DNA from: a virus
Virus record (IMG/VR): IMGVR_UViG_3300029908_001993
Span: 1 to 27,460 of that record
Direction: 5' to 3' (one strand)
DNA: 27,460 bases
Below, in pieces: positions 19,441 to 22,839 of this stretch (positions within the stretch are counted from its first letter, which is position 1; each line of letters opens with the position of its first letter). The position numbers and the translations under genes were made by a program. The notes under the pieces were generated by a model that made no database searches, was not told the DNA's origin, and was given only the letters and a program-made list of their open reading frames with translations.

Positions 19441-19758
19441 ATGCAAGTTGAACAAATGGAACTCATGAAAGTTATTAAATTCCCTAAAAATAAGATAGAA
19501 GAAAAAGAAGATAGAGAAAGAAAGGATAAATTAGAACAAGCTTATAAAATGTTAGATTATTTAATAGGTTGTGGAGCTGATTTTAATATAATAGTTGATA
19601 TTGAAAAAGGTAATGAATTATTTGAAATAACTGAAAAGCAAATAAAAGAATATAAATATCTAATGTTAACTACGAATTACGAGAAATCTAAAAAGATAAG
19701 ATTTGCAGAAGGAGTAAATAAAGTTGCATTTTATCAAATAAAAGGAGATGAATTTTAA
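19441..19758 (+). CDS. Unknown phage protein, 105 residues
   Basis: MQVEQMELMKVIKFPKNKIE and a charged helical stretch (EEKEDRERKDKLEQAYKMLD). GGAGGGAAG lies before the ATG. The stop overlaps the next ATG (TAATG), so it is coupled to the late regulator gene. Confidence 0.6.
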   Translation: MQVEQMELMKVIKFPKNKIEEKEDRERKDKLEQAYKMLDYLIGCGADFNIIVDIEKGNELFEITEKQIKEYKYLMLTTNYEKSKKIRFAEGVNKVAFYQIKGDEF

Positions 19759-20186
19759 TGCAAGAAGATAAAACAATTGCTATAAAAGAAATCAAAGAAC
19801 GTATTGATAGAAATATAAAATCCTTATGTGATTTAGACGATAAATATTTAAAGGCTTATAGTCCACAGGATTGCCCAACAGGTACGAGCTATAATGATTA
19901 TGATTCTATTCATGGAAGTAAAAGTGAATATAGAATAGAGCAATACTGGAAAGAAAAACAAAAGTTATTAGCATTAATAGAATTAGACAAGCAATTAATA
20001 ATATCTATTGGATTACAGGTTGAGGATAAAGAATATTTAAACTTGCTAAATAACAACAATCAAAAAGTCAAATATTTAAGGCAGGTTAAAGGATATACTC
20101 AAGCTAAAACAAGTGAAATTCTTGGAATCAGTGAAAGACAGGTGATAAGAATAGAAAATAAACTTAAAAAATGTCAAACGTCATGA
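19758..20186 (+). CDS. ArpU/RinA-like late transcription regulator
   Basis: 142 residues. A helical N-terminus (IKEIKERIDRNIKSLCDLDD) precedes a C-terminal sigma-region-4-like HTH (YTQAKTSEILGISERQVIRI). Its place, last gene before the terminase block, matches the ArpU/RinA/DUF1492 type of phage late activators. Three TGTCATG-type repeats at the 3' end and a promoter with TATAAT at 20230 follow immediately, so it may activate the late region from there. Overlaps the previous gene by one base. Confidence 0.65.
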   Translation: MQEDKTIAIKEIKERIDRNIKSLCDLDDKYLKAYSPQDCPTGTSYNDYDSIHGSKSEYRIEQYWKEKQKLLALIELDKQLIISIGLQVEDKEYLNLLNNNNQKVKYLRQVKGYTQAKTSEILGISERQVIRIENKLKKCQTS

Positions 20187-20238
20187 ACAATGTCATGTTT
20201 ATGTCATGGTAACTTGCTTTTCAGAGGTTTATAATAGT
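20172..20238 (+). promoter_or_regulatory. Repeat cluster and probable late promoter
   Basis: GTCATG occurs at 20180-20185, 20192-20197 and 20203-20208, spaced 12 and 11 bases (one helical turn), with a partial copy at 20172. TATAAT (20230-20235) follows inside GGTTTATAATAGT, with no good -35, as expected for an activator-dependent promoter. The repeats overlap the end of the regulator gene. Confidence 0.5.
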
Positions 20239-20315
20239 ATTTGTAAAGAATTCAACAAGGCCTCCAACCAAGTTGAACAAAGAACTCTCATAAATTCTCA
20301 ATACCCTTTTATACT

Positions 20316-20352
20316 AAAAGACACTTATAGAAATATAGGTGTCTTTTGTTGT
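20316..20352 (+). terminator. Strong terminator or attenuator
   Basis: AAAAGACACTTATA (20316-20329) pairs with TATAGGTGTCTTTT (20334-20347), one G-T pair, over a GAAA tetraloop, and is followed by GTTGT. It lies about 75 bases after the presumed late promoter, so it may act as an attenuator that needs antitermination, or end the upstream operon. No gene that I can support lies between 20187 and 20396. Confidence 0.8.
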
Positions 20353-20396
20353 ATAATGAATATAGAACACATATTCGTTAAAAGGGGAGAGTTAAA

Positions 20397-20567
20397 ATGA
20401 AATGCATTATTAAATATAAAGATCAAGAGAATGAATGTTTTTGTAATAAATTAAAAGAATGTAGCAAATGCAATAATAAAAATAATAGAGAATCAGAAGA
20501 AAAATGCGAGGTATCACCTAACGGATATTGTACTTGTAGAACTTGTGGACATTCAGTAAGAGCTTAA
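20397..20567 (+). CDS. Cys-rich small protein, 56 residues
   Basis: Nine Cys in 56 residues: ECFCNKLKECSKCNN and later NGYCTCRTCGHSVRA. AAAGGGGAGAG lies just upstream. It probably binds zinc. It directly precedes the large noncoding region and may share its transcript. Function unknown. Confidence 0.6.
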   Translation: MKCIIKYKDQENECFCNKLKECSKCNNKNNRESEEKCEVSPNGYCTCRTCGHSVRA

Positions 20568-21119
20568 TTTTATGGGATAAAAACAATAAAGTTCTTAAAT
20601 TTAACTGTAAAGTTGAAGTCTTAAGTTTATACTTGAGAGATATGTAGACGATATGGGGTATTTTTATTATGCTTATAGACCAGTAGAAACAAAAAAATAT
20701 ATATGAAGGTGAGGTGGTTCCCTCCACGGCACGAGTATATAGCATCTACTGGTTTATTTTATAAAGAACTTATCAAGCCTCCTAATAGTGCTCAAATAGA
20801 TAAGACATATTCCTAAGTAGACTAGGAAAATCAACCAGACACAGTTGAAGGAAAAGTAATGCCCAATAAAGGTTACGTCTATAATAATTCCTAACAGATC
20901 ATTAGGGGTTACCGTTTAACAATAGGGTTGCAAGATATAAAGGCGGATATCTGCTGAAAAGTAAACCCGCTAAAGTGAGAGGCTGAACTGATTATGTCGA
21001 TAGGTTCGGGGGAGTAGAAGAAGACAAAGAGATATTTACAGTTGTTGCACTCTACAAAGCAACAACTTACCAAAATAATAGAAATCAAGACATCTAATTA
21101 ATTTTAGGTGTCTTTTTTA
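20568..21119 (+). ncRNA. Candidate large structured RNA (about 500-550 nt)
   Basis: This stretch has no supportable ORF on either strand, is less AT-rich than its surroundings (most clearly 20850-21030) and shows many local helices: 20675-20687/20745-20757 (13 pairs), 20769-20774/20799-20804, 20810-20815/20823-20828, 20831-20835/20844-20848, 20890-20894/20902-20906, 20925-20929/20964-20968 enclosing 20933-20938/20947-20952, 20983-20988/21004-21009 and 21040-21048/21059-21067. A perfect terminator closes it. Size and prophage setting resemble the large phage-associated RNAs ROOL and GOLLD, but I cannot assign it to either by eye. The 5' end is not defined. Confidence 0.65.
21087..21119 (+). 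terminator. Terminator at the end of the noncoding region
   Basis: AAGACATCTAA (21087-21097) pairs with TTAGGTGTCTT (21104-21114), one G-T pair, over TTAATT, followed by five T. A textbook intrinsic terminator marking the 3' end of the candidate RNA, before the BRO gene. Confidence 0.9.
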
Positions 21120-21150
21120 TACCCAAAAATAAAAGAGGAGTTGTTGTAGT

Positions 21151-21828
21151 ATGTTAAAAATCTTACAAGAAAGAAATGTAAGGATGATCTGGTCAAAAGA
21201 TGGTAATGAAATTTGGTTTAATGCTAATGACATAGGAGAAGAACTAGGAATAGTCCAAGTTAGTTCTACATTAAGGAATATAGATAAAGAATATAAGAAA
21301 AAATTTAATGAATCTACTATGCAAGCTATGCAAGGTAGAAATTTCAAAGATAAGTTAGCTAATTTTGGAGAAATATTCATTACCGAGGAAGCTGTATACA
21401 ACTTATCGTTTAGAAGCAATAAAGCAGAAGCTAAATTATTTACTAAATGGGTATCTAAGGTATTAAAGCAAATAAGAATTAATGGTTATTATATAGCTAC
21501 TGATAAAGATAATGAGTGGTTAGGAGTAAGAACAGACAGTAAAACTACTAGGAGAGAGTTCACAGATGAGATTCAAGAGTTTGCGCATTATGCAACAGAG
21601 CAGGGAAGCCATAAGCCCCAAATGTATTATATACACTTCACTAAATTAGTAAATGAAAAACTTGGAATACCAAAAGATACTAAGAGAGAAGATTTAAACC
21701 AAAATACATTAATGGATATCATGGCATTAGAAAGAGTTATGTCTATGAGATTACCTAAGCTAATAACTAAAGAAATGCCATATAAAGATGTTTATAAAGA
21801 AATAAAGAAGCTAATAGCTATTATATAG
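21151..21828 (+). CDS. BRO-N domain antirepressor
   Basis: 225 residues. BRO-N domain at 10-115 (DGNEIWFNANDIGEELGI, ITEEAVYNLSFRSNKAEAK, FTKWVSKVLKQIRINGYY). The C-terminal part (YIHFTKLVNEKLGIPKDTKR) is a helical domain seen in other phage antirepressors. GAGGAG lies 10 bases upstream. It is the second antirepressor-type gene in the prophage and follows the noncoding RNA terminator directly. Confidence 0.87.
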   Translation: MLKILQERNVRMIWSKDGNEIWFNANDIGEELGIVQVSSTLRNIDKEYKKKFNESTMQAMQGRNFKDKLANFGEIFITEEAVYNLSFRSNKAEAKLFTKWVSKVLKQIRINGYYIATDKDNEWLGVRTDSKTTRREFTDEIQEFAHYATEQGSHKPQMYYIHFTKLVNEKLGIPKDTKREDLNQNTLMDIMALERVMSMRLPKLITKEMPYKDVYKEIKKLIAII

Positions 21829-22656: not shown

Positions 22657-22839
22657 ATGGGACAAAGAAAGAAAATTAAATTAAATATAAAATTCAGCCA
22701 AGGGAAAGTAGTATGTGCTAAGTCTCCAATTGAATGTATGAGCTGCGAAGATATAAGTAAATGTGAAACAATAGATACATATTATTATCCTTTCGAGGGT
22801 GTAAAGGAATGTTTTAAGAATAGTGAGAGGAGTAGATAA
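22657..22839 (+). CDS. Small Cys-containing protein, 60 residues
   Basis: MGQRKKIKLNIKFSQGKVVC, then IECMSCEDISKCE and VKECFKN: five Cys, a probable zinc site. AAAGGAG is upstream. It lies in the small-gene run ahead of the terminase. Function unknown. Confidence 0.6.
   Translation: MGQRKKIKLNIKFSQGKVVCAKSPIECMSCEDISKCETIDTYYYPFEGVKECFKNSERSR

Follow-up and report, generated by a model that had tools for sequence, protein, structure and literature searches.

What kind of RNA, if any, does a temperate phage keep in the 552 bases that separate a small cysteine-rich ORF from a BRO gene (positions 20568-21119)? The original prediction had seen in this stretch one large structured RNA, possibly a relative of ROOL or GOLLD, probably under late phage control. 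The DNA analysed here (the window) comprises all 27,460 bases of an IMG/VR virus record. This record is a fragment (27.5 kb) of the phage genome, and a second record of the same virus (G016) adds about 5 kb. It encodes AntA, RusA, a late-regulator-like protein, BRO and the small and large terminase subunits (Pfam and PHROG matches and the ORF list), together with a serine recombinase-like ORF and repressor-like HTH ORFs identified by reading, and is therefore regarded as a temperate siphovirus-like genome. The host is taken to be Clostridium or a close relative, because the large terminase shares 81% identity with its counterpart in a Clostridium rectalis prophage. The gene-free stretch lies downstream of the late regulator and ahead of the terminase genes, and the 566-base stretch is identical in two further records (L031 and L041). 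The locus contains the following features:

19758-20186, plus strand: late-regulator-like protein with a sigma-70 region 4 / HTH-like C terminus (Pfam Sigma70_r4 at E 2e-4, just under the cut-off; PHROG transcriptional regulator)
20285-20313, plus strand: conserved promoter-like box CTCTCATAAATTCTCAATACCCTTTTATA, aligned in L121, L120, L126, L160 and L123
20307-20356, plus strand: terminator-like hairpin, an inverted repeat with arms 20307-20329 and 20334-20356, present in L121
20397-20567, plus strand: 56-aa Cys-rich ORF adjoining the RNA (88% identical in L121, 61% in L123; also in L130)
20599-20662, plus strand: module A, a DUF3800-VIII-like RNA with a broken basal stem (full-length cmscan match of 37.1 bits at E 3.5e-5, under the Rfam gathering score of 40.2 bits and so short of the membership threshold of RF03075)
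20675-20757, plus strand: module B, a hairpin absent from Rfam (13-bp outer stem, 20675-20687 with 20745-20757; z -4.61)
20769-20805, plus strand: module C, a motif of the abiF antitoxin RNA type with no abiF gene to accompany it (full-length cmscan match of 29.3 bits at E 0.0033, under the gathering score of 37 bits and so short of the membership threshold of RF03085)
20806-21037, plus strand: stretch between C and I with no Rfam match and no stability excess
21038-21074, plus strand: module I, absent from Rfam (stem, GCACnCTA..AAAG loop, stem, TACCAA)
21087-21119, plus strand: intrinsic terminator (11 pairs, then a T run; z -7.5)
21151-21828, plus strand: BRO / antirepressor gene downstream of the RNA (Bro-N at E 1e-16; PHROG anti-repressor)

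No plausible plus-strand ORF is present between 20567 and 21151, the only minus-strand ORFs that overlap the interval are two unsupported ones (75 and 59 aa), and in relatives the interval is interrupted or replaced, all of which bears out the claim that the stretch is gene-free. When folded, the 552 bases are more stable than 100 of 100 shuffles (z -3.48), with the excess confined to module B (z -4.6), module I (z -4.4) and the terminator (21087-21114). The latter had been correctly predicted as the end of the stretch, and is the sole terminator-like site detected in 20100-21250 (0.5 expected). Nine helices had been proposed as well; the 13-bp stem among them is real, although several others are unsupported, because the middle part (20806-21040) has the same stability as shuffled sequence (z -0.6 to +0.3).

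Structured RNA in a prophage-like virus, with compensatory changes among its homologues, was thus a sound reading of the locus, although its kinship and its unity were not. Rfam cmscan of the 566 bases gave no match to ROOL or GOLLD at E up to 10, and OLE and HEARO were likewise rejected as identities for want of an Rfam match. Like ROOL and GOLLD, the locus is a phage-borne structured RNA (and viral abiF copies are also often near tRNA genes), but it is modular and matches neither of them in sequence or structure. The whole stretch has no DNA homologue among INPHARED phages or PLSDB plasmids, although its individual modules do occur in other phages and prophages, where they are separate from one another. 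A single large ornate RNA akin to ROOL or GOLLD, whether divergent or novel, would suit the size, the prophage setting and the overall stability, but with its modules separate elsewhere, no Rfam match and no long-range covariation unit seen, it is hardly credible. A cluster of small RNA modules is, on the other hand, well supported, and sequence comparison identifies A, B, C and I as homologues of RNAs that occur independently elsewhere. Two of them, A and C, correspond to defence-associated Rfam motifs on the same strand and at full model length.

Module A matches a copy in the prophage contig L121 at 97% identity over 66 bp; the L121 copy scores 63.4 bits, above the RF03075 threshold, and the sequence upstream is 88.6% identical in the two over 324 bases. 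The homology of module A to DUF3800-VIII RNA can be regarded as certain on this identity, with the window holding a degenerate copy. Relative to L121, a clean deletion of about 140 bases (junction at about 20604/20605) removed a promoter-like box and the 5' strand (AATACC) of the basal stem of module A, so that, unlike RF03075 members, the window copy has no intact basal stem. Module A may be dead, because this lower stem is broken. Across 20 aligned copies of this RNA, compensatory changes are found in 15 of 22 pairs, a level that none of 500 shuffles reaches. An association of this RNA with DUF3800 genes is unsupported in Clostridiaceae, since these genes are missing from 8 of the 10 genomes that carry the RNA; they are also absent from the window, and a role of module A against DUF3800 is accordingly unsupported. 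DUF3800-VIII RNAs of Clostridiaceae (L120-L138) mostly stand alone in intergenic regions, several of them within prophages.

The same deletion bears on how the locus would be transcribed. The promoter proposed upstream has a counterpart in the conserved promoter-like box CTCTCATAAATTCTCAATACCCTTTTATA, which in five prophages is found directly 5' of a hairpin or of a DUF3800-VIII RNA, usually immediately before the RNA, and the RNA of the window lies downstream of both this box and the late regulator. In the window, a hairpin and the Cys-rich ORF stand between the box and the RNA, which is therefore probably transcribed from that ORF's promoter or reached by read-through. Full-length copies of A end in a long stem followed by a T run, as terminators do, and transcription should therefore run on where this stem is lost. 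Because the deletion would have taken A's own promoter box and disabled its terminator stem, the modules are presumably transcribed with or after the Cys-rich ORF, and transcription would read through to the terminator at 21087. The terminator placed further upstream, at 20316-20347, does exist as a hairpin (20307-20356, kept in L121), although it is not among the terminator-like sites detected in 20100-21250; attenuation at this hairpin is possible. A sigma-70-like -10 element (TATAAT, 20352-20357) follows the hairpin, in a promoter-like site (20328-20357) whose score of 10/12 is not above chance. The repeat cluster that had been described here amounts to three short GTCATG copies near 20180-20210, found by reading, while no direct repeat of 9 or more bases is present in 20060-20440. 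The Cys-rich ORF has no Pfam or PHROG match, and its homologues (L121, L123 and L130) each lie beside a DUF3800-VIII RNA.

Module B is present in at least 10 other phages and prophages, and a model of it (R3) has matches in 9 of 208 Clostridiaceae genomes. In L120, L126 and L162 the module comes after A; in L216-L218, L220, L228 and L234 it stands without A. A T-rich tail comes after its outer stem, and each of two overlapping alignments shows three compensated pairs in this stem; this covariation support is modest, in part because the stem sequence itself had been used to find the viral copies. The site looks like a cargo hotspot, because module B adjoins the 3' end of the late-regulator gene in L220, where it comes directly after it, lies directly 5' of the small terminase gene in L216 (and also in L250), and is followed by various cargo ORFs elsewhere, these gene identities being assigned by reading. 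The cargo ORF right after module B resembles DUF4062 by eye in L228, and appears TIR-like by eye in L234, yet has no Pfam match there.

Module I shows compensatory change in 7 of its 8 pairs, and a model built without the window returned the module I of the window as the top match in 305 kb (27.9 bits, E 1.4e-4; next match 18.6). It is common to four phages (L024, L064, L074 and L077), whose module I loci are non-coding over some 1-2 kb, contain one to three copies of the module each as well as further hairpins, and adjoin the large terminase wherever that gene is on the sequence. The loci of L024 and L077 include abiF motifs, those of L074 and L077 tRNA genes. Divergent copies of module I were found in L161 and directly after module B in L248, L249 and L162, which suggests that C and the stretch 20806-21037 were inserted between B and I. 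That stretch has no homologue above chance in 208 Clostridiaceae genomes, except for the last few bases beside module I: at E up to 1, BLAST of 20806-21090 "matched" 200 of the 208, nearly all by short chance matches, and the only match retained, in G034, is to the part adjoining module I. The R1 model of module I gave nothing in the 208 host genomes at E 1e-3 with strict filters, and a second module I scan yielded no new true copies. Scanning for TAGCCnATAAATA...ACCA, a hairpin of a related type, gave matches mostly due to chance and was set aside. Long non-coding loci downstream of the large terminase (L077:9960-11600, L076:4640-6240 and L074:9840-11830) carry many hairpins of 7-8 bp with a GCCnATAAA loop followed by ACCA, several of which resemble a second form of module I, while others hold tRNA-like halves.

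Module C contains the conserved core and the paired stems of the AbiF antitoxin RNA. Its core is an exact match to CAAGCCTCNNAANNNTGCTCAAAT, for which the chance expectation in the window is 1e-7, and the cmscan alignment and the fold show that the inner 3-bp helix is present and that all pairs of the 6-bp P1 are kept with largely different bases. The core has the GCTCAAAT form with an AAAGAA flank, as in host AbiF antitoxins of Clostridiaceae (L099, L100 and others). It is called abiF-type here, and not a curated member, because its score is under the gathering threshold. With the abiF RNA (RF03085), the type III antitoxin of AbiF represented by RCd22 of C. difficile (PMC12373285), it shares the core CAAGCCUC...UGCUCAAAU, the 6-bp closing stem and the inner helix; it differs in its sub-threshold score, in its place amid unrelated RNA modules, in being a single motif where RCd22 has two, and in the lack of a toxin gene. 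No Abi_2 gene is found in either record of this virus (G000 and G016), so that the arrangement of a type III system, with the toxin beside the RNA, is lacking in them; as the record is a fragment, such a gene could lie in the unseen part of the phage.

Toxin-less copies of this RNA proved to be the rule in viruses. The exact core CAAGCCTCNNAANNNTGCTCAAAT was scanned over IMG/VR, a search that misses divergent copies, and gave 59 loci, including the two copies of the window's own virus. Whole records were then searched for Abi_2, which is present anywhere in only 1 of the 49 other viral records with the exact core; the search of all collected loci added one further Abi_2 locus (L058). By contrast, abiF RNA is found in 18 of 208 Clostridiaceae genomes, with an Abi_2 (PF07751) gene beside it in 11 of the 18 (one of these genes being a fragment) and no adjacent toxin gene in the other 7. 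The Fisher p value for this difference in toxin linkage (about 5e-7) is optimistic, because near-identical viral records are among the sample, although the asymmetry is still large. The Clostridiaceae motifs without an adjacent Abi_2 gene include L102, L104 and L112-L115, which are possibly prophage-borne.

The toxin-less viral copies are not decaying. On average, 47 distinct copies keep 5.06 of the 6 pairs of P1, which the scan pattern had asked for at one base only, against a mean of 3.81 and a maximum of 4.19 in 2000 shuffles. Two further covarying pairs, unconstrained by the pattern, are kept in 48 of 50 copies (as TT/AA, TC/GA or CC/GG, and as CT/AG in the window). Many of the copies are near tRNA genes, 21 within 500 bp and 12 within 50 bp. 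Toxin-less abiF-type RNAs inside phage tRNA clusters, often 12-50 bases from a tRNA, are seen in L005, L009-L011, L016, L034, L047, L051, L055 and others, and L038 (590-711) has three abiF motifs in a row within an array of over 20 tRNA genes. At L004:7825-8219, and in L032 and L042, an ARAGORN call of a permuted tmRNA overlaps the abiF core at one end, either as two overlapping RNAs or as a false call.

AbiF has been proposed as the ancestor of Cas13. This HEPN RNase is bound and neutralised by its RNA antitoxin, which can act in trans and for which the stem is required (PMC12373285). Phage PhiTE defeats ToxIN abortive infection by RNA mimicry, with an antitoxin-like pseudo-ToxI RNA (PMC3475682). 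Since the AbiF antitoxin works in trans and this precedent exists, the simplest account of module C would be the same trick directed against AbiF. Both are phage-borne antitoxin-like RNAs without a toxin for which mimicry is proposed, although the target in PhiTE is ToxN, the window has no tandem repeats, and module C is a mimic by prediction. An abiF RNA in a phage is not new as such, because an abiF sRNA, of unknown role but possibly functional, has already been predicted in the genome of cyanophage S-CREM1 (PMC9964418; PMC12197685); there it is a single predicted sRNA, whereas here it belongs to a combined cluster, set within a survey in which toxin-less viral copies are the rule. A DNA region of lactococcal phage sk1 is reported, as cited in PMC12737573, to protect phage 712 from AbiF; as far as this citation goes, sk1 gives no support to mimicry, because its genome has no abiF motif.

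There is thus somewhat better than an even chance that the locus is a set of separate small RNA modules at an accessory-cargo site of a temperate Clostridium phage, in which the abiF module is a trans-acting antitoxin mimic against AbiF. The module, freed from the transcript or active inside it, would bind AbiF toxin encoded by the host or by a competing mobile element and neutralise it in trans, so that growth arrest by AbiF would then fail to abort phage production. A, B and I may work likewise on other RNA-binding defence proteins. A stronger version, possible though tentative, would make the whole a polyvalent antidote transcript with decoys for several RNA-inhibited toxins (AbiF by C, others by A, B and I) shuffled in a cargo hotspot, which, if true, would be an RNA counterpart of anti-defence islands.

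The modules could instead be relics, that is, remnants of toxin-antitoxin loci that lost their toxins and now persist as neutral sequence in a recombination-prone spot. The deletion that broke the basal stem of A, the score of C under its gathering value and the 230-nt middle stretch without homologues or excess stability would all fit such decay; it is made unlikely by the toxin-less viral abiF copies, which retain P1 and two more pairs by compensatory change in many distinct sequences and recur near tRNA genes in unrelated phages, and by the compensated pairs of module I (7 of 8). Plain regulation is another reading, in which A, B and I serve as terminators or as signals for processing, or are recombination patches separating exchangeable cargo genes, have no protein target, and are accompanied by C through chance. 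It would draw on the terminator-like end of full-length A copies, the T-rich tail of B and the position of B directly before the small terminase gene and various cargo ORFs. Loops such as GCACnCTA..AAAG and TACCAA would not be conserved in plain terminators, however, the modules occur in varied combinations (B then I in L248, L249 and L162; A then B in L120 and L126), and the abiF core is left unaccounted for, so that this reading is unlikely too. A split system, finally, in which the RNA shields the lysogen from AbiF of a co-resident prophage or plasmid (as an anti-addiction device) or is the partner of an abiF gene located in phage sequence still missing from the records, would be compatible with the AbiF loci that prophages carry (PMC12373285) and with the incomplete virus record; since both records of this virus lack Abi_2, it is improbable.

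If antitoxin mimicry by module C is the right explanation and phages widely carry an RNA antidote to AbiF without the toxin, this would represent a general RNA-based counter-defence against an abortive-infection family, an idea directly testable with an RNA of 37 nt. The uncatalogued hairpin families B and I would be leads to RNA-binding defence proteins, and the loss of a terminator stem would be a mechanism that fuses small RNAs into longer transcripts. As far as the literature consulted shows, it is new that copies in viral records are as a rule toxin-less, that their pairing is conserved and that they are associated with tRNA clusters; the composite locus is new as well, and so are the hairpin families B and I.

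Two further observations concern the surroundings of such sites. In a relative, a structured and apparently gene-free region with a terminator (L072:4830-5180) lies upstream of the small terminase gene and has no recognised module in common with the window. Cys-containing proteins of about 60 aa (KIKLNIKF...CAKSP...C) are encoded downstream of the RNA site in the window (22657-22839), L121, L162 and L218.
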